DNA of 20,902 nt from a virus: positions 1 through 20,902 of IMG/VR virus record IMGVR_UViG_3300021141_000072. One strand, given 5' to 3'. Under the pieces are notes generated by a model. That model was not told where the DNA came from, did no database searches, and saw nothing but the letters and a program-made list of their open reading frames with translations. Shown here piece by piece: positions 6,752 through 20,902 of this stretch (position 1 is the stretch's first letter; each line of letters begins with the position of its first letter). The translations under genes and the position numbers were made by a program.

Positions 6752-7170
6752 TGAGTAATATTGATTTAAACAAATACAAAGATTTTGTAGAAGCCGTAAC
6801 TAGTAGTGCAAGTAATGATTTGACTACATTTATGAACCGTTGTGATGAACTTGATGGTAATGATGGAGGACCTGATATCAACGTCCCACTATTACTTACA
6901 GCTTGTCTAGGATTAGCGGCTGAAGGTGGTGAGTTTATTGAAGTGCCCAAGAAGATGTTTTTTCAAGGTAAACCACTGACAGAAGCAGAAGTGTTTCACT
7001 TAAAGCGAGAGTTGGGTGATGTTATGTGGTACTGGATTAATGCTTGTCGTGCATTGAATCTTGACCCAAATGATGTGATTGATGAGAATGTTCGTAAATT
7101 AGAAAGTCGTTATCCCGGTGGAACTTTTGACGCACATTATAGTGAAAATCGAAAAGAAGGCGATATCTAA
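6751..7170 (+). CDS. MazG-like nucleotide pyrophosphohydrolase
   Basis: The 139-residue product has the paired acidic motifs of the all-alpha NTP pyrophosphohydrolase (MazG/dUTPase-like) family. They are Glu58-x2-Glu61 in 'AAEGGEF' and Glu87-x2-Asp90 in 'RELGDVMWYW', followed by the Asn/Lys-containing helix 'DVIDENVRKLESRYPGGTFD'. Such enzymes convert NTPs or dNTPs to monophosphates plus pyrophosphate. In phages they are thought to shape nucleotide pools or counter the host alarmone response. Start overlaps the upstream stop by one base. It shares the sigma70 promoter at 5529 and so should be early, in keeping with the dNMP kinase at 9450. Its stop is followed by a hairpin containing a late promoter rather than a clear terminator. 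Substrate preference is unknown. Confidence 0.85.
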   Translation: MSNIDLNKYKDFVEAVTSSASNDLTTFMNRCDELDGNDGGPDINVPLLLTACLGLAAEGGEFIEVPKKMFFQGKPLTEAEVFHLKRELGDVMWYWINACRALNLDPNDVIDENVRKLESRYPGGTFDAHYSENRKEGDI

Positions 7171-7177
7171 GAACCAA

Positions 7178-7210
7178 TAGTTTCCTGATAAATACAACAT
7201 CAGGAAACTA
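7178..7210 (+). promoter_or_regulatory. Late promoter inside a 12-bp inverted repeat that covers the gp13 RBS
   Basis: TAGTTTCCTGAT (7178-7189) and ATCAGGAAACTA (7199-7210) are perfect inverted repeats around a 9-nt loop. The late promoter GATAAATA (7187-7194) begins in the left arm. The Shine-Dalgarno AGGAAA (7202-7207) lies in the right arm, 5 nt before ATG 7213. RNA reading through from the early promoter at 5529 would fold and hide the RBS. RNA started at the late promoter (about 7200) would lack the left arm and be translatable. Confidence 0.75.
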
Positions 7211-7212
7211 AT

Positions 7213-8010
7213 ATGACTATATCTGCAACAGCAAACATTCTTTCTACACCAACCGGCTTAACACTAGATGAGTTGAAACAAGCATTATTCAGCAATCTAC
7301 GTTATAGATTGGGTGATGGCATTATTGACCTAGAGTTAGATCCGCAACACTATGAAGCGGCGTACAACTATGCAATCAAAGTATATCGTCAAAGAGCACA
7401 AAATGCTACGGCTGAATCATATACACTAATGACAGTTGTAAAAAACGTAGATACTTATACACTGCCTCAAGAGTTTATCAATGTTCGTTGTATCTATCGT
7501 AGAACAGTTGGATTAGAGACTGGCCCGGGAGCAAGCAGTTTTGATCCGTTCAGTAGTGCTATTTTAAACACTTATCTATTAAACTATAACTATGCAGGTG
7601 GTATGGCAACATATGACTTCTATGCAGGTTATGTTGAACTAGCCGCACGTATGTTTGGTGGATATGTAATCTATACATTTGATCCAGTTACAAAAGTTAT
7701 TCGTATTGTTCGTGATCCAAAAGGTAGTGGCGAACGAGTATTAATTTGGGCTGATGTTCAAAGACCAGAAGAAGTATTACTACAAGATCCGGGCGCTGGT
7801 GTATGGATTGGCGACTTTATCTTAGCTAATCTTAAACTAATCATTGGTGAAGCACGTGAGAAGTTTGGAACAATTGCAGGTCCAGGTGGTGGCACAACAC
7901 TAAATGGAACAGCTATGAAAGCTGAAGGCAAAGCCGCAATGGAACAACTGTATGATGAACTAAAACGCTATGTAGATTACAGTCAGCCATTGACTTGGGT
8001 ACAAGGCTAA
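7213..8010 (+). CDS. 13: Neck protein, T4 gp13-like (head completion)
   Basis: The 265-residue product fits the gp13 pattern of T4-like marine phages. There is an N-terminal helical region of acidic character ('RYRLGDGIIDLELDPQHYEAA', split by 'LTLDELKQALF'), then a beta segment with 'VDTYTLPQEFINVRCIYR'. The C-terminal helix region has 'REKFGTIAGPGGGTTLNG', with Gly-rich 'GPGGG..LNG' as in cyanophage gp13. gp13 binds the portal with gp14 to form the neck that seals the filled head and accepts the tail. Expression should be late, from the promoter at 7187. The ATG has AGGAAA at a 5-nt spacing. The stop is immediately followed by the ATG of the modular protein at 8011, so both are in one late transcript. 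Confidence 0.75.
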   Translation: MTISATANILSTPTGLTLDELKQALFSNLRYRLGDGIIDLELDPQHYEAAYNYAIKVYRQRAQNATAESYTLMTVVKNVDTYTLPQEFINVRCIYRRTVGLETGPGASSFDPFSSAILNTYLLNYNYAGGMATYDFYAGYVELAARMFGGYVIYTFDPVTKVIRIVRDPKGSGERVLIWADVQRPEEVLLQDPGAGVWIGDFILANLKLIIGEAREKFGTIAGPGGGTTLNGTAMKAEGKAAMEQLYDELKRYVDYSQPLTWVQG

Positions 8011-9390
8011 ATGAGAGCAACAGAGTTCATTGTTGAAGGTGTGACGGAAGGCAAATTAAATGAGATCCGTGACCAACTTTGGACCTGGGTTCAGTCTAAA
8101 TTTCCAAGAACACAATGGCCTGAATATGTGCAACGAGATTTTTTATATCAACAAGCAAAGGGCATTCGTAATCAAGCCGAGTTAGATGATTTTCTAAAAA
8201 GAAACAGAAATGATTTTGGTAAAGTGCAATGGCGTTTAGAAAAACTACCAATAACCATGGATATCTTTACTCCTAAAACGCAAAGAATGATTTTAAGTCG
8301 TGAAGGTGGTAGTTCTAATCCTTTTCAAGTGCCGCGTGACGCTGAAAGACACGCACAGCAATTAAAAATAATTCAACAAAAGGGCGTGAGTGAAGAACCC
8401 ATTATCGTTGCTAAATTATCAAACGGTTATGATTTGATTGAAGGTTGGCACAGAACTATTCAACATTTGAAGGAATTCCCCCAAGGTTACACCGCACCTG
8501 CTTGGGTAGGTTATGGGGCAACTTATACAAGCGAAAGTGTAGAGCAAGGTGTGGCGGAAGGATTAGATGAGGCAGTGGGTGATAACTATCTTTATCACGC
8601 TACAATGCCTGCAGGCATAATGCGTATACTGCGTACCGGAGCAATCAAAGCAACTGACCGCCCGCAGCCATCTACCAAAGCAAGAACACAGTATCCCACA
8701 ATCAGCACCACTAGATCAAAACAATATGCCGAGTCAAATGAGTTTGTGGATTTCTTAAATTTAACCAAAGAAGGCAATGCAGTGATATTGGTGTTTGATC
8801 GCAATGCTGTGGCCAACCACTACAAGATGTTTGGCACAAGTCAAGGTACACAAACTGTAGGTGACGAATATGAAGAAGTAATTGTTGCCCCTAAAGGATC
8901 AATGCCAATCAAAGGAACATTAAAGGGATTCTATTTTAATCCAAAACGTACTAGTGAAATTCAAGAATATCAAGATGTGCCTTGGTTCAAAGAATTATTA
9001 AACAGTCCATATTATATGGGACAAGAGCAAGCTGTGGCGGAAGGTCTTTTCGACAGATTTAAGAAAAAACTAACAGCCAATATTGGCGGAATAGATTTAA
9101 CAGCATCTAAAGAGGGCGGCAGAATTATAATCGATGCATCTTCACAGGGTAAACAATTAGGTATTGTAATGTTCAATATCAATGGCAAAACTCTAGTTGC
9201 CGACAGATTAATGGTTCAACCTGAGTATCGAGGACAAGGAATTGCTGAAATTATGTATGACTGGGCAAAAGGACTTGGCTACACGGTACAACGTAGTAGC
9301 GATCAGACTGATGACGGCAAGAGATTCTGGGATAAACTCAAAGGTGAAGAGACAAATGTATGGGAGCAAGATGTGGCGGAAGGCACTTAA
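8011..9390 (+). CDS. Modular protein: capsid-targeting-like N-terminus, ParB-like, ART-like and GNAT-like modules
   Basis: The 459-residue protein starts 'MRATEFIVEG', very close to the T4 internal-protein targeting peptide (recalled as MKTYQEFIAEA, cut after E). Module 1 (about 15-177) has a ParB/sulfiredoxin-like patch 'GYDLIEGWHRTI' at 139-150. Module 2 (about 185-338) has 'YLYHAT' (193-198), 'ISTT' (231-234) and 'DEYEEV' (285-290), the order of ADP-ribosyltransferase motifs (H/R, STT, ExE). Module 3 (about 346-451) has the acetyl-CoA-binding GNAT motif 'QPEYRGQGIA' (403-412). Each module is followed by EQxVAEG, at 178-184, 339-345 and 452-458, the last one residue from the C-terminus. The motif resembles the T4 prohead-protease site ([L/I]xE before G/A). 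The ATG abuts the gp13 stop, with AAGG upstream. Catalytic activity is unproven for every module; GNAT is the surest, ParB-like the weakest. Confidence 0.7.
   Translation: MRATEFIVEGVTEGKLNEIRDQLWTWVQSKFPRTQWPEYVQRDFLYQQAKGIRNQAELDDFLKRNRNDFGKVQWRLEKLPITMDIFTPKTQRMILSREGGSSNPFQVPRDAERHAQQLKIIQQKGVSEEPIIVAKLSNGYDLIEGWHRTIQHLKEFPQGYTAPAWVGYGATYTSESVEQGVAEGLDEAVGDNYLYHATMPAGIMRILRTGAIKATDRPQPSTKARTQYPTISTTRSKQYAESNEFVDFLNLTKEGNAVILVFDRNAVANHYKMFGTSQGTQTVGDEYEEVIVAPKGSMPIKGTLKGFYFNPKRTSEIQEYQDVPWFKELLNSPYYMGQEQAVAEGLFDRFKKKLTANIGGIDLTASKEGGRIIIDASSQGKQLGIVMFNINGKTLVADRLMVQPEYRGQGIAEIMYDWAKGLGYTVQRSSDQTDDGKRFWDKLKGEETNVWEQDVAEGT
8032..8051 (+). repeat. Degenerate copy of the VAEG-coding repeat near the N-terminus
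   Basis: GTTGAAGGTGTGACGGAAGG matches the 20-bp repeat found three times downstream at 16 of 20 positions, in the same reading frame. It encodes Val8-Glu-Gly-Val-Thr-Glu-Gly14, directly after the targeting-like N-terminus. It may be the ancestral or a decayed copy. Confidence 0.5.
8542..8561 (+). repeat. 20-bp in-frame repeat, copy 1 (EQGVAEG)
   Basis: GAGCAAGGTGTGGCGGAAGG encodes residues 178-184 at the seam between the ParB-like and ART-like modules. It is identical to copies 2 and 3 except at base 9, the middle base of the variable codon. Synonymous positions are also conserved. Confidence 0.9.
9025..9044 (+). repeat. 20-bp in-frame repeat, copy 2 (EQAVAEG)
   Basis: GAGCAAGCTGTGGCGGAAGG encodes residues 339-345 at the seam between the ART-like and GNAT-like modules. 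Nineteen of 20 bases match the other full copies, including the GTG and GCG codons. Confidence 0.9.
9364..9383 (+). repeat. 20-bp in-frame repeat, copy 3 (EQDVAEG)
   Basis: GAGCAAGATGTGGCGGAAGG encodes residues 452-458, followed by one Thr and the stop codon. Its position at the very end of the gene means the GNAT-like module is flanked by a copy on both sides. Confidence 0.9.
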
Positions 9391-9449: not shown

Positions 9450-10082
9450 ATGATTATTGGAGTTACAGGATTGATCGGTAGCGGCAAAGATACTATTGCT
9501 GACTATCTTTGTACATTTCACGGATTTAAACGTATGAGTTATGCGGCCTCATTGAAAGATGCAGTCGCCGCAGTATTTGGTTGGAACAGAGAATACTTAG
9601 AAGGCTCTACTAAAACTAGCAGAGCTTGGCGAGAACAAAAAGACGAATGGTGGAGTAATCGTTTGGGTATGGATATTACTCCACGATGGGTCTTACAATA
9701 TTGGGGTACAGAAGTATGCCGTAATAACTTTCACACTGATATTTGGGTAGCAAGTGTAGAGAATAAACTACGTCAAACAGATGAAAACATTGTGATTACT
9801 GACTGTCGTTTTGCCAATGAAGTCAAAGCATTAAAGAACGTGGGTGCTGTTACAATGCGTGTAAGCAGAGGTGAACGTCCAGTATGGTATAGTGCCGCAG
9901 TTGATTATAACAATGAACCTGAAGGTAGCGAACAAAGACTAAAAGCTATGGTAGAGTTAGGTAACTATTGCGTACACGCTAGCGAGTATAGTAGTATCGG
10001 TTTATTGTATGACTATTACATTGATAACAATGGGTCAATTGATGAGTTACACAAGCAAGTCAACTCAGTGGTCAACTTCTAA
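9450..10082 (+). CDS. 1: Deoxynucleoside monophosphate kinase, T4 gp1-like
   Basis: The 210-residue product opens with a Walker A P-loop, Gly7 to Thr15 ('GLIGSGKDT'), right at the N-terminus as in phage dNMP kinases. Further on are 'PRWVLQYWGTEVCR' (about 71-84), a stretch I associate with phage dNMP kinases, and 'VITDCRFANEV', a Walker-B-like strand with Asp and Arg that likely contacts the nucleotide. Length is somewhat below T4 gp1 (241 aa). Such enzymes phosphorylate dNMPs, including modified ones in T4, to dNDPs for phage DNA synthesis. The gene has its own host-type promoter and RBS (GGGAG, 7 nt), so it is probably early although it sits between late genes. Its 3' end overlaps the convergent HNH gene by 18 bp. 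Confidence 0.85.
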   Translation: MIIGVTGLIGSGKDTIADYLCTFHGFKRMSYAASLKDAVAAVFGWNREYLEGSTKTSRAWREQKDEWWSNRLGMDITPRWVLQYWGTEVCRNNFHTDIWVASVENKLRQTDENIVITDCRFANEVKALKNVGAVTMRVSRGERPVWYSAAVDYNNEPEGSEQRLKAMVELGNYCVHASEYSSIGLLYDYYIDNNGSIDELHKQVNSVVNF

Positions 10083-16050: not shown

Positions 16051-16411
16051 GGCTAGAATACTTGACACACGAACTCAACTTGATTCAACAGTAAGAATAT
16101 TTGATGACTTTTACGCATTTGACTTGGTAGTCAATGGTAATGAGTATGATATTGTTCGTGGATATTTTGTATCAGTATGCGAAACAAAACAAATAGCCGA
16201 TAATTTCACAGTAAATCTGTTTAGAATATCTCAGCAAACACAAGTTCCTGTATTAGACTTGCTTAACTACATTAGAGGTCTTAACAACAAATTAGAAATG
16301 AATACTGTTATTACATATTATCTTAACAGTTTCAAAAGTAAAACAGCATTATACGGTATAGGTACTGTACCTCAACCTAATCAGAATGTCGCTAGAAACG
16401 TAGTATTGTAA
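16049..16411 (+). CDS. Small conserved phage protein of unknown function
   Basis: The 120-residue product has a central region 'RIFDDFYAFDLVVNGNEYDIV', then 'ADNFTVNLFRISQQTQVPVLDLL', and ends with 'YYLNSFKSKTALYGIG' and 'NQNVARNVVL'. I recall similar short proteins next to tail tube genes in marine T4-like phages, always without assigned function. It has no signal peptide, membrane segment or Cys cluster of note. The position between tube proteins and gp4 suggests virion assembly. Its start lies in a hairpin with its own late promoter, and its stop overlaps the gp4 start by one base (TAATG). Confidence 0.7.
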   Translation: MARILDTRTQLDSTVRIFDDFYAFDLVVNGNEYDIVRGYFVSVCETKQIADNFTVNLFRISQQTQVPVLDLLNYIRGLNNKLEMNTVITYYLNSFKSKTALYGIGTVPQPNQNVARNVVL

Positions 16412-16848
16412 TGGCTAAGTATGCACAGGGTATATACACTCCTAAGAACCCAACAAAATATGTAGGTAAACATACTCCTAGATATCGCAGTGGTTGGGAA
16501 CTTACATTTATGACCTTCTGTGATAGTAACAAAAGCGTATTGTATTGGGCTAGCGAATCATTCAGTGTTCCATATCGTCATCCATTTACCGGTAAACCTA
16601 CAATATATATACCTGATTTCTTTGTAGTTTATCAAAACAAGTATGGTAAACAGATAGCAGAAGTTGTAGAGATTAAACCAAAAAAACAAAGTCTTATTGA
16701 GAGTAAAGTTGCTAGTGCTAAAGATAGAATGGTTGTAGCAATCAATCACGCTAAATGGCAGGCTGCTATGGCTTTCTGTAAACAACAAGGTTACATTTTT
16801 AGAGTTATTACTGAGGATGACCTTTTTAGAAACGGTTCACGTAAGTAA
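16411..16848 (+). CDS. 4: Head completion protein, T4 gp4-like (PD-(D/E)xK nuclease fold)
   Basis: The 145 residues align by eye with T4 gp4 (150 aa): 'GIYTPKNPTKYVGK', 'YRSGWELTFMTFCD', 'VLYWASESFSVPY', 'VVEIKPKK', 'KWQAAMAFCKQQGYIFRVITEDDL'. Residues Asp69 in 'IPDF' and Glu87-x-Lys89 in 'VEIKPKK' make a PD-(D/E)xK-like active site, with Glu30 as a possible additional ligand. T4 gp4 (also called gp50/65) is needed for head completion and stable head-tail joining. A nuclease function on the packaged end has been suggested for the fold. The gene overlaps the upstream stop by one base, so it depends on the 16023 promoter. The gp16 late promoter overlaps its stop codon. Confidence 0.85.
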   Translation: MAKYAQGIYTPKNPTKYVGKHTPRYRSGWELTFMTFCDSNKSVLYWASESFSVPYRHPFTGKPTIYIPDFFVVYQNKYGKQIAEVVEIKPKKQSLIESKVASAKDRMVVAINHAKWQAAMAFCKQQGYIFRVITEDDLFRNGSRK

Positions 16849-17368: not shown

Positions 17369-17998
17369 ATGAAAAGCCTCAAACATTATATAACAGAAAG
17401 TGTACATACTTACAATTACACTATCAAGATTGCTGGCGATGTGGATAAGAATTTTATAGATTTGTTTAAGTACAATCTTAATAAATTTGATCCTATCAGA
17501 ATTAGTGATCCAGTAAAAACTCCTATTCAAAAGAATCCGTATGGATTTCCTAACTTGAGTAATCAGTCTATTACTATTATCAAAGCAGATTTTCGCTATC
17601 CAGCGACAGAGCCAATGATTCAACAGATTGCACAACTATTGGGTTATCAGGTTGATATGGTTCGTGTTGTTGGAACTGATTTTAATGACAGCATTGATAG
17701 TGAACAGGTAGGCTATGCTAATGAGATGAGTCATAATCCATTACTATTGCATCCTGAATTAGAAGAACAACCTGGTGCTAAAGAAGCTAGCAAAAACTAT
17801 GGTGACAGATACTTGTCTAGTATCAAAGACCAATCGAAGGGATCAAAAATTGATACCCCTTACGCAGGTGCAAAAACACCTGACGCATTCGATCCATTCA
17901 AGCCTTACTTGGATGACAAACAGATGGGTGAAAAGAGCCCAATGAGTACAATCAAACGTCCACCGAAGCCACAAACTGGCGCAAGTGCATCTAAATAA
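17369..17998 (+). CDS. Putative head-internal or prohead-core protein with targeting-like N-terminus
   Basis: The 209-residue product starts 'MKSLKHYITES', similar in layout to the T4 capsid-targeting peptide (basic start, aromatic, then [I/L]xE). This would put a prohead-protease cut after Glu10. Residues 13-100 look like a compact alpha/beta domain ('YNYTIKIAGDVDKNFIDLF', 'SITIIKADFRYPATEP', 'QIAQLLGYQVDMVRVV'), resembling as I recall hypothetical proteins of marine T4-like phages. Residues from about 110 on are polar, rich in Pro, Lys and Asp, probably disordered. It lies between gp16 and a very large head-associated ORF, and is late by its promoter at 17342. No enzymatic motif is visible. 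A scaffold/core role is as likely as an ejected protein. Confidence 0.6.
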   Translation: MKSLKHYITESVHTYNYTIKIAGDVDKNFIDLFKYNLNKFDPIRISDPVKTPIQKNPYGFPNLSNQSITIIKADFRYPATEPMIQQIAQLLGYQVDMVRVVGTDFNDSIDSEQVGYANEMSHNPLLLHPELEEQPGAKEASKNYGDRYLSSIKDQSKGSKIDTPYAGAKTPDAFDPFKPYLDDKQMGEKSPMSTIKRPPKPQTGASASK

Positions 17999-18010
17999 AA
18001 GGAACATAAA

Positions 18011-20902
18011 ATGGATTTCAAAAGTTTAATATCACAACTAGACCAGTTGAACGAAGCAACAACAAAAACTAAAACTGGCATCAAGCACACTGCTGAGCCA
18101 GGTGGTTATGGTCGTAAAGACGATGAAGATGAAGAAGGCAATAAAGTTAAAGACAAAACTGCCGAGAAAAAAGGTAAAGGTCGTCCAAAGAAAGCTACAT
18201 CTACATCAGGTGAAGATAAGAGTTATGACTTCAGTGCGTTTGGCGTAACTAAAGGTAAAGATGTTAAGTTACCTAAGTATGACAAAAAGAAAACTAAGAA
18301 GCATAGTATCAAAGAATATCTTGACCAAATGTATGAACCATTGAATGAAATGGGTATTACTGTTAAGCCAATGCCAGGTGCAAGTCAAATCATTGGTGCA
18401 GATGGTAAGCCAATGGGAACTGCTGATGCGGCAACTGCTAACACAATTAAGCAAGCATCTGAAAAAGGTACTCTTAAACTTGGCGGTGATGAAGAAATGA
18501 AAGAAGGCGACATTGGTAAGCATAACAATGCTACTACAGGCTTTGATGCATTAGTTCGTAAACTAACACCTAAGTATGGTAAAGAAGCCGCAACAAAAAT
18601 TGCAGGCTCACAATTAAAGAAAATCAAAGAAGCTGATATGCCTCCCCGTGATGCATTAGCTAGTCCATTGACATTAGAAAGCAAGAAAAAGCCAGATGCT
18701 AACAAAAACGGTATCCCTGACTACGCAGAAGATGGTGAGGGTAAAAACGACTTGAAGAAAAAGAAAGATAAAATTGACGAAGGTATTATGGACAAACTCA
18801 AAGGTATGTTGGTACCTAAACTAATGAAATTATTAGGTCCAGATGCAGAAAAAATTGCCAGCGCAGTTAAACAAGCAACCGGCGGTGATTTTACTCCTAG
18901 TAAAGAAAATGCTATGAAGGTAGTACAAGCTTTAGGAATTGATAGAGCCGCAAACAAACCTGAAATGGCTGAAGGCATTGCTGGCAACTGGCAAGGTAAG
19001 TTAATTCAGGCATTATATACTTTGGGTCTACTAGGTGCGGCAGGCGCCTCTGCCACAATGTGGGGCACAATAGCCGGTGGTAGCATGGCAGTTATTGGCT
19101 TTTTACTGTTGATGTTTGCAAACTCATTCTTTGGTGAAGCCCCTGGCCAAGCAGGGGCTATGGGCAAGTTTGGTAACAAAGGAACTAGTGCTCAAAACGG
19201 TTTAGACGATAACGGTATGCCTATTAGAAATACTAATGTAGATGAATCAGTTAATAAAAAGAAAGTTAAAGAAGATATGGATTCAGAATCAAAGACTGAC
19301 AAAAAGAAATGCCCACCAATGTCACATATTAAAAAAATGTGTCAGGATGGAAAGTCTGTAGCAGAAATTTGCAAAATGCATCCTGATTGTGACCAGAAAG
19401 AATTAAAACAAATGGTAGCTGATTGCAAAAAGAAAATGGTTAAAGAAGGCATGGATCAAAAATTAAATGCCGCACGTTCAGAAGGCAAAGCACACGGTCT
19501 ACGTGGTCACGCACATTGTGGTAAGAACTACGAAGACATGGAAGAAGCACGTTGCTACCATGAAGGCTACAAAGAAGGTCTAGATGAGTGCTATGGTCAG
19601 ATGCCAATTCAAGGTTACGTTGGTGAGACTACCCCAGTAGTAAACACAATGGCAAGCTATGGTGCTGAAGAAGGTGAACTAGCTGAAGCAGACATTGAAG
19701 AAAGTCCATTCACTTGGGCCGCTAAGAACACACCAAAGGGTAGCAAGTTCTCATTAGGTGGTAAAGAGTTCGTTAAGAATGATGCATTTGCTTTTGAAGC
19801 ATTAGACAAACAATTAAATGCACTATTAGAAGATAAAGAAGTTACTGAAGGTATGACTGTTTCTATCAGCAAAGGACAACAAGGTGCTCCTGATTCAGTA
19901 AGTGTATCAGCACAAGACGGTGAAGCTGACCAACTATTGAGCGTTATCAAATCGGCAGGTCTAGGACTGTTTGGTGGTGATGACAGTTCTGGAATGTCAC
20001 ACGCAGATCCAATGACAGTAGATAACGGTGGTGAGCCAGCTGAAATTGGCGCAGGTGGTGATGCGATTGAAGTAGTTGGCGATCACGATGGTATGATGAG
20101 TTTGATGAAGAAACTATCAGGTATTGGTGGTAGTCAATCACACGATGAAGAAACTTGCGAGTCGTGCGGTGGAATGATGGAAGCAGGTCACTCTTGTAGT
20201 AAAGATAAAGAAATGGTTGATGAAGTTGAATCAGAAGACCAAATGACTTATCAGATGGCCGAAGATAATCCTCCAGACAGTGGTGCCGCAGAAGTTGATG
20301 CAGAAGATGCATCAGTATCAGCCGCAAATGCAGCCGCAGCCGCATATAATCCAAGTCAAGATATTGACGAAGGTGGCGACGGTGGTGAAGCAAGTGACGT
20401 AGGAAACATTGGTGTTGAAGCTGGTGATGCTGACGAAGAAATGCAAGCTTCTATGAACGAAGTTGAAAAAATAATTCCTGATCCTAAATACGATCACGAA
20501 CCTCCTGCCCAAGAGAGCGATCCCACACCTGATGACCAAGGAGACGATCCCATACCTGATGACGACCCCGAAGGAGAACAAAAAGAAAGAATGTCAGAAT
20601 CAAGTTTCTTTAGTCTTTACAAAAAATTAGCAATGTTATCTGAAGAATCTACTAGTGAGAAAGATGACAAAGCAGAAGAAGCTGGTAAGAAAGTCAAAAA
20701 AGACATTGAGTATGATGACAAGAAAGACAAGAAGAAAATAGACGAGTGGGCTAATGATGCAGGTCCAGGTAAATCTGTATCAGATACTACATTTGAAACT
20801 GATATTGACTTTATGATGAATGTTATCAGTGGTGGTTTGAACAAGCGTAAGCAAACTGGTCAAACAACTATCCCTGTTCTTGCAAGTCAATTAGGTAGAC
20901 AA
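18011..20902 (+). CDS. Very large acidic/lysine-rich head-associated protein (partial, at least 964 aa)
   Basis: ATG 18011 (RBS AAAAGGA upstream) opens a frame with no stop through the window edge, 964 codons. The N-terminus 'MDFKSLISQLDQLNEA' again has an [L/I]xE-A site at 13-16. Long Lys/Asp/Glu/Gly-rich linkers join short folded segments. Further [L/I/M/V]xE-[G/A] sites recur, e.g. IDEG (255-258), MAEG (319-322) and VTEG. Two hydrophobic helices lie at about 331-351 and 353-371. A Cys-rich patch has Cys434, 444, 454, 460 and 472, and a zinc-knuckle-like C716-x2-C719-x7-H727-x-C729 follows. The last part, 'FETDIDFMMNVISGGLNKR', looks folded. Composition and position suit a prohead core or internal head protein cut by the prohead protease. 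I recognise no named homologue. Minus-strand ORFs in this region are composition artefacts. Confidence 0.7.
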   Translation, partial: MDFKSLISQLDQLNEATTKTKTGIKHTAEPGGYGRKDDEDEEGNKVKDKTAEKKGKGRPKKATSTSGEDKSYDFSAFGVTKGKDVKLPKYDKKKTKKHSIKEYLDQMYEPLNEMGITVKPMPGASQIIGADGKPMGTADAATANTIKQASEKGTLKLGGDEEMKEGDIGKHNNATTGFDALVRKLTPKYGKEAATKIAGSQLKKIKEADMPPRDALASPLTLESKKKPDANKNGIPDYAEDGEGKNDLKKKKDKIDEGIMDKLKGMLVPKLMKLLGPDAEKIASAVKQATGGDFTPSKENAMKVVQALGIDRAANKPEMAEGIAGNWQGKLIQALYTLGLLGAAGASATMWGTIAGGSMAVIGFLLLMFANSFFGEAPGQAGAMGKFGNKGTSAQNGLDDNGMPIRNTNVDESVNKKKVKEDMDSESKTDKKKCPPMSHIKKMCQDGKSVAEICKMHPDCDQKELKQMVADCKKKMVKEGMDQKLNAARSEGKAHGLRGHAHCGKNYEDMEEARCYHEGYKEGLDECYGQMPIQGYVGETTPVVNTMASYGAEEGELAEADIEESPFTWAAKNTPKGSKFSLGGKEFVKNDAFAFEALDKQLNALLEDKEVTEGMTVSISKGQQGAPDSVSVSAQDGEADQLLSVIKSAGLGLFGGDDSSGMSHADPMTVDNGGEPAEIGAGGDAIEVVGDHDGMMSLMKKLSGIGGSQSHDEETCESCGGMMEAGHSCSKDKEMVDEVESEDQMTYQMAEDNPPDSGAAEVDAEDASVSAANAAAAAYNPSQDIDEGGDGGEASDVGNIGVEAGDADEEMQASMNEVEKIIPDPKYDHEPPAQESDPTPDDQGDDPIPDDDPEGEQKERMSESSFFSLYKKLAMLSEESTSEKDDKAEEAGKKVKKDIEYDDKKDKKKIDEWANDAGPGKSVSDTTFETDIDFMMNVISGGLNKRKQTGQTTIPVLASQLGRQ

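Follow-up and report, generated by a model that had tools for sequence, protein, structure and literature searches.

A single viral gene, located within a 20,902-nt stretch of DNA (IMG/VR record IMGVR_UViG_3300021141_000072, positions 1 to 20,902; hereafter the window), encodes a protein in which nearly the same seven residues recur at the end of each of three modules. This layout poses the question of whether the gene delivers several enzymes as one chain that is cut apart in the phage head, as the initial annotation had proposed from the letters alone, or whether it encodes an uncleaved multidomain protein whose modules are separated by similar linkers.

Phage T4 provides the frame for this question. 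T4 internal proteins enter the head via a ten-residue targeting peptide (CTS) that is then removed by the protease gp21, which cleaves C-terminal to Glu in L/I-x-E (PMC9026906). Among them, Alt is an ADP-ribosyltransferase (ART) cut at both ends, and injected internal proteins inhibit host restriction (PMC9026906, PMC5694885, PMC12373910). The P3 preference of related giant-phage proteases differs, being A-x-E in SPN3US (PMC5694885).

Genomic context of the gene

The TAA stop of a gp13-like neck gene abuts the ATG of our gene, so the earlier placement directly behind gp13 was correct, and the protein begins MRATEFIVEGVTEG. The same gp13-like and deoxynucleoside monophosphate (dNMP) kinase neighbors (Table 1) are conserved in contigs L108, L131, L132, and L134, and around it the window holds T4-type genes for the tail and for head completion (gp15, sheath, tube, and gp4-like). 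Since the window's sheath is nearest to those of jumbo phages (e.g., Atu_ph07, Phosso, and PA5oct, at ~46-47%), we regard the window as part of the genome of an uncultured jumbo-type phage related to T4. The window allele was found identical or near-identical (99-100%) in three other IMG/VR contigs (L124, L125, and L126). A tblastn search of isolates found no close relative of the protein, with the exception of one weak partial match, and the Phosso gene at the equivalent position (9656-10246 of L211) has neither a CTS-like start nor repeats. All relatives are metagenomic contigs, and the whole of our evidence is comparative.

A late-promoter-like motif, GATAAATAC, lies ~25 nt upstream of the gp13-like gene. 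In the stretch ahead of that gene (7150-7212, CCTGATAAATACAACATCAGG), this motif sits within a small inverted repeat. Enrichment of T4 late promoters ahead of genes with CTS-like starts gave no clear signal. Elsewhere in the window, at 16411-16848 (+), a TnsA-like endonuclease N-terminal domain lies inside the head-closure (gp4-like) protein.

Table 1. Features of the candidate polyprotein gene and its flanks (window coordinates)
Feature	Coordinates	Strand	Details
gp13-like neck/head-tail adaptor gene, upstream flank	7213..8010	+	phrog_211, E 9e-23
Candidate effector polyprotein gene	8011..9390	+	459 aa
CTS-like targeting peptide MRATEFIVE	8011..8037	+	candidate cut after Glu9 (IVE-G)
Degenerate fourth copy (EGVTEG)	8035..8052	+	2 mismatches; left edge of module 1
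Module 1, weakly ParB-like	8053..8559	+	A3 alignment of 22 relatives
Repeat 1 (EQGVAEG), exact 20-mer	8542..8561	+	candidate cut after Glu183; sister-locus homology ends here
Module 2, predicted ADP-ribosyltransferase fold	8560..9042	+	begins LDE-AVG; AF2 pLDDT 80
Repeat 2 (EQAVAEG), exact 20-mer	9025..9044	+	candidate cut after Glu344
Module 3, predicted GNAT acetyltransferase	9043..9381	+	PF00583, 24 bits vs cut-off 20.7
Repeat 3 (EQDVAEGT-stop), exact 20-mer	9364..9383	+	candidate cut after Glu457; sister-locus homology restarts 9382-9388
dNMP kinase, downstream flank	9450..10082	+	phrog_139, E 4e-49

A coding repeat and the modules between its copies

The EQxVAEG motif on which the initial annotation was built is real, and its three occurrences are encoded by three exact copies of GAGCAAGNTGTGGCGGAAGG, where chance would give 0.01. 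A degenerate copy, GAAGGTGTGACGGAAGGC, directly follows the N-terminal targeting peptide (a copy in G021 reads GAAGGTGTGACGGAAGG). At the protein level, [LIVM]xE[GA] occurs seven times against 1.1 expected (0/500 shuffles), and the same test found no enrichment in the window's sheath, tube, or gp13.

We examined what lies between the repeats using profile searches, alignments, and structure prediction. When the whole chain was modeled with AlphaFold, modules 1 and 3 were confident, module 2 was poorly modeled, the junctions fell below pLDDT 50, and the pTM was low (0.38); this is as expected of separate domains, and the model is not that of one continuous domain across the motifs. Module 3 is a predicted GNAT acetyltransferase by both its fold and its acetyl-CoA loop, with GNAT structures ranking top in the fold search with the chain model and a YRGQGIA motif present (A4 alignment). 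Module 2 was modeled from an eight-sequence alignment, and comparison of this model with structures gave matches to Tpt1 (Z 9.3, rmsd 2.6 over 103) and DarT (Z 8.5) and mostly ART-fold enzymes in the top rows, which supports an ART fold. Its alignment conserves YH and EE, with Y10, Y12, H13, S49, R52, and E103/E105/E106 (module numbering) compatible with a predicted ART catalytic triad and NAD-dependent activity.

Module 1 appears weakly ParB-like: 19 of its 22 relatives gave weak ParB-like PHROG matches (best E 0.007), Pfam ParB_N was matched in 2 of the 22 (E 0.044), and a GYDLIEGWHRT block is nearly invariant in the alignment. A sequence search for solved relatives of modules 1 and 2 returned none that was convincing, and the whole-chain fold search, informative for the GNAT module only, says nothing either way on the module 1 fold. 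Thus, of the three enzyme assignments made earlier, the GNAT and ART modules held up, and the ParB-like one did so weakly. An ART fold and a GNAT in a single chain amount to at least two unrelated domains of the repertoire found in phage polyvalent proteins, and other repeat-bearing ORFs ("carriers") encode nucleotidyltransferase, deaminase, and ParB domains. Many carrier modules are small and have no assigned function, and some, at 45-60 aa, are short for effectors that act autonomously, which counts against the effector reading. Profile searches found no peptidase family match in the window protein, nor in 58 carriers at E 0.001.

Targeting peptide and candidate cleavage sites

The initial annotation had noted that the N-terminus almost matches the T4 targeting peptide. 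This similarity extends well beyond the window, as starts of the form M[KR]x2-3[EDQ][FY][ILV]xE are found on 87 distinct proteins from 17 sequence families at these loci. Among repeat-bearing proteins, 57% have [LI]xE in residues 5-20, versus 25% of other ORFs at the same loci (p 4e-11); of the ~43% of carrier ORFs that do not, some perhaps have wrong start codons assigned.

The proposal that VAE-G approximates the gp21 rule survives in part. The repeat has Val at P3, unlike the L/I of mapped T4 sites. However, selection on the repeat follows the pattern of that rule, hydrophobic-x-Glu. Where the Glu codon has changed, 34 copies are silent and 2 replacing against a neutral expectation of ~1 silent in 9, and the Val codon has been replaced by M30, L4, I2, and E1, counts that come from copies with shared ancestry and do not represent independent events. 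The residue between Val and Glu is loosely small, and Gln is freely variable. The direction is unambiguous: the aligned copies point to selection on the repeat as protein, for Glu and for a hydrophobic P3. Among near copies in G001-G022, an altered last repeat codon (GCx, GAx) is often seen, as though the decay of old junctions began at P1'.

A second signal lies immediately behind the repeat, where [LI]xE occurs at an offset of 1-2 after VAEG in 46 of 290 cases, about ten times the ~4.4 expected. Alignments account for this excess, because stand-alone homologues of the modules start with a candidate CTS cut site at that place: for module 1, the stand-alone relatives open with MRAQEFLTESRG or MRITEIVTESRG, aligned with QGVAEGLTEARD in the fused versions, and for module 2, a stand-alone relative opens with MRLVEFVTEAVGGDYIYHS, aligned with LDEAVGGNYLYHA in the fused version. 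Fused modules therefore keep the candidate cut site of their free-standing relatives, and module 1 of the window retains LNE18-I19 beside the repeat. In L159, a canonical site, EQLTEA, joins a GNAT to an ART-like module at the same place.

We also asked whether these phages carry the corresponding protease. T4-type gp21 and gp23 lie close together in 8 of 22 repeat-bearing contigs, and the sheaths of these contigs match the window's sheath at 48-56% where found. Neither gene is present in the window contig or its closest relatives, all of which are short fragments (relatives 16-75 kb). In the gp23 of these carrier contigs, as compared by eye, YLxE or HLxE stands where T4 gp23 is cut (FLTE).

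The starts of several other ORFs also stood out. Adjacent genes at 9313-11721 of L159 begin MRSHEFLDEY (kinase-like), MRAQEFLTES (ParB-like), and MRAAEFIVEY (GNAT plus ART-like), an apparent island of head-targeted effectors judging by these starts. Many carriers (L099, L041, L078, L089, and others) start MNNEFKK and contain, at residues ~15-40, a segment (TRYVLESATSGGTSAGAVATV) similar to the stretch of the same phages' gp23 around its expected cut (LGESATAGATSTGNIATL), as if they had borrowed the capsid protein's arm. The window itself holds an ORF at 17369-17998 (+) that starts MKSLKHYITES behind a GATAAATAC motif, with relatives starting MKTFHQYLAES (L050) and MKNFYEYLSS (Phosso, L211), and we consider it a candidate CTS-like head protein. 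A further ORF at 18011-20902 (+), which runs off the end after at least 964 aa, starts MDFKSLISQLDQLNEATTK, has 11 [LIVM]xE[GA] sites against 3.2 expected (0/500 shuffles), and resembles at its N-terminus an L076 ORF carrying four repeats; it is possibly a second multi-cut head protein.

The alternative raised at the outset is that the chain stays uncut, as a polyvalent protein in which EQGVAEG is a flexible linker whose DNA happens to allow domain shuffling. Phages are known to encode polyvalent proteins with ART, ParB, and GNAT domains (PMC5512222, PMC7824862), certain polyvalent proteins are transferred uncut (PMC5512222), and the junctions of the chain model are low-confidence and linker-like. 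A linker, however, would need neither an invariant Glu with a hydrophobic residue two positions before it while the rest varies, nor an LxE right behind the repeat that matches the cut sites of stand-alone proteins, and we therefore consider this explanation unlikely.

Less likely still is that the carriers are structural or scaffold head proteins that cleavage at the repeat would clear away, as in T4 gp22, gp67, and gp68. T4 core proteins are indeed cleaved into numerous pieces (PMC9026906), a virion structural family (phrog_13484) has matches among the carriers, and the ORF at 18011 is rich in [LIVM]xE[GA]. Scaffolds, however, would not be expected to have the predicted enzymatic folds of the window protein and other carriers, nor to differ in content between sister phages at a single locus.

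Conservation of the repeat as DNA

An exact scan of IMG/VR located the repeat in at least 120 other viral stretches. Copies were present in 22 of 22 carrier records, where a reversed control pattern was present in none, and those within one record were usually concentrated in few genes. The reading frame is common to 417 of 418 copies at up to 2 mismatches and to 495 of 500 at up to 4. Counted at sites that were not chosen through the DNA pattern, the codons CAA, GGT, GTG, GCG, and GAA are each used in 89-99% of copies, with GGC as the last codon in 84%. In the same ORFs, 11% of alanine codons are GCG and 25% of valine codons are GTG (repeat versus background frequencies of 0.93 versus 0.11 and 0.89 versus 0.25, respectively). 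The repeat is conserved at the DNA level, beyond what the peptide and codon usage would require.

Outside these viral contigs, 257 Gb of GTDB genomes yielded 26 exact matches to the 18-mer in every frame; these look like chance, and we rejected a bacterial or prophage origin. A plasmid origin was likewise rejected, since plasmid matches fell in unrelated genes. Phage isolates gave no full match, and the sequenced relatives Phosso and Atu_ph07 have no copy at up to 3 mismatches.

Such uniform DNA could point to a selfish or mobile element, or to a site for site-specific recombination, that is tolerated in frame as harmless and has no role in packaging or cleavage. Both the strength of the DNA conservation and the dispersal of the repeat over unrelated contigs speak for this explanation. 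However, it accounts for neither the frame lock nor the purifying selection on amino acids; the 18-mer, read directly, has no dyad symmetry, the searched window ORFs include no linked recombinase, and the repeat spreads together with whole modules. We consider it very unlikely. The uniformity may instead stem from a recent spread accompanied by gene conversion, from a recombinase, or from selection for identical DNA because it favors exchange.

Module exchange at the repeats

Homologues carrying different modules between the same motifs, which the initial annotation had named as a sign to look for, proved to be plentiful. Between carrier ORFs, 389 of 825 distinct positions at which homology breaks lie within 12 nt of a repeat, where 68 are expected and control windows shifted by 150 nt gave 64. 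In this break analysis, segment families were built with a wider repeat motif that takes in degenerate repeats, and in 68 of the 77 families with several members the module has more than one neighbor. In 63 ORF pairs, both members have a module running from repeat to repeat with 90-100% DNA identity, and no pair has equally similar flanks: 34 have no other similarity between their loci, and the flanks of the remaining 29 are lower in similarity by over 5 points.

The locus itself is a further case: five module sets are found in related phages at this single syntenic position between gp13 and the dNMP kinase. The window and L124-L126 have CTS-M1-ART-GNAT (M1 being module 1), L108 has CTS-M1-ParB-like-NFDSFK, L131 has CTS-M1 followed by a short LLNEFA module, L132 and L051 have CTS-new module-M1-ParB-like-NFDSFK, and L134 has a split version. 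Nucleotide similarity of sister loci to the window breaks off where repeat 1 ends (8561-8565) and restarts where repeat 3 ends (9382-9388). Module 1 of L132 is 97.3% identical to that of the window in surroundings of 74-81%, and the 97% block shared with L132/L051 begins at 8036. By comparison of these loci, the repeat DNA marks exchangeable in-frame cassettes.

It is hardly credible that these mosaics are metagenome assembly chimeras formed at a short repeat, even though the data are all metagenomic and the repeat is 17-20 bp, because the window and L132/L051 alleles each recur in several separate contigs from different IMG datasets, the ORFs stay open and in frame, stand-alone homologues exist, and the modules diverge by 3 to 70%, meaning that the junctions are old.

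Proposed mechanism

In our view, the gene product is probably a polyprotein of effectors that is targeted to the head of a jumbo T4-like phage and cut by a gp21-type protease, and whose modules are swapped at the repeat. This reading draws on the repeat, its frame lock, the selection on Glu and a hydrophobic P3, the module structure, the exchange of cassettes, and the CTS-like N-termini, all of which were brought out by sequence comparison. Late in infection, the T4-type CTS would draw the chain into the prohead core, where the phage's gp21-type protease, once activated, would cut after the Glu of IVE, VAE, and the adjoining LxE sites, freeing a ParB-like protein, an ADP-ribosyltransferase, and an acetyltransferase. 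We infer that the freed enzymes are then packaged and injected alongside the genome, the fusion allowing a single targeting peptide to serve several effectors. The ~18 bp of DNA spelling QGVAEG, common to junctions across many phages, would act as an in-frame crossover point at which recombination, presumably homologous or microhomology-based, inserts, deletes, and swaps modules, every insertion bringing its own cut site; each phage would therefore carry a different effector set.

The predicted activities (ADP-ribosylation, acetylation, and ParB-like nuclease or binding) suit host take-over or counter-defense, by analogy with T4, whose Ip proteins inhibit type IV restriction enzymes (PMC12373910) and whose Alt protein modifies RNA polymerase (PMC9026906). 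The polyprotein idea of the initial annotation thus holds by comparison; what it missed is that its motif is also a repeat for module exchange at the DNA level. Our best reading is that T4-type internal proteins have been turned into shuffling polyproteins. We hold more tentatively, as something that may well prove wrong, a fuller gene-cassette system, in which the 18-bp coding repeat is both recombination point and head-protease dicing site, and captured modules are automatically packaged, released, and delivered. A dedicated recombination process may drive such a system and keep the repeat DNA uniform.

Comparison with known systems

The nearest parallels are T4 IPI, IPII, IPIII, and Alt (PMC9026906, PMC5694885, PMC12373910), which share with our gene a short N-terminal peptide ending in hydrophobic-x-E and late expression, and whose gene sets likewise differ among related phages. 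In T4, each gene encodes a single protein that has a CTS to itself. Our gene instead places several modules behind one CTS in one chain, linked through a repeat that is conserved as DNA and has V at P3, and packaging is predicted. Polyvalent proteins (Iyer et al. 2017, PMC5512222) similarly combine many unrelated domains, including ART, ParB, and GNAT, with extensive mosaicism; they are predicted to enter with the DNA, and the authors likened them to viral polyproteins. Their release, however, was ascribed to embedded peptidase domains, found in part of the class (PMC5512222), whereas profile searches found no peptidase domain here and the junctions carry copies of a prohead-protease-like site, at which recombination breakpoints also fall. 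In phiKZ and SPN3US, ejection and inner-body head proteins are also cut after x-x-E by a gp21 relative; there, however, propeptides are removed, and the parts of the report available to us do not describe multi-effector release from a shuffled chain (PMC5694885).

Integron gene cassettes offer a comparison in working principle only, being exchangeable coding units bounded by a common short DNA site. Our system differs in having no integrase and no palindromic attC-like site, and its cassettes are in-frame protein modules; an integron-like or site-specific cassette system was rejected on the lack of dyad symmetry and of a recombinase in the searched window ORFs. In the T-even adhesin gp38, with its glycine-rich motifs, and in T-even ip-locus cassettes, variable segments are separated by conserved coding motifs, which supply the homology for swapping. 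These motifs serve structural roles or as targeting signals for whole genes, unlike a processing site between fused effectors. The string EQGVAEG was not found in the literature searched. Relative to T4 internal and polyvalent proteins, what appears to be new, as far as the portions of those reports available to us extend, is a putative processing site that recurs along the chain and doubles, in its DNA, as the crossover point; the cassette logic itself also stands a fair chance of being new.

If this reading is true, injected anti-host enzymes are handled by these phages in plug-in fashion: whatever domain came to lie between two repeats would be targeted to the head, released, and delivered. 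The release mechanism is directly testable with one protease assay. Scanning from repeat to repeat would then become a practical way of mining hundreds of uncharacterized candidate counter-defense effectors, and it would reveal how phages re-arm through recombination. The T4 internal-protein theme would thereby grow from one of individual genes into one that includes shuffled polyproteins.
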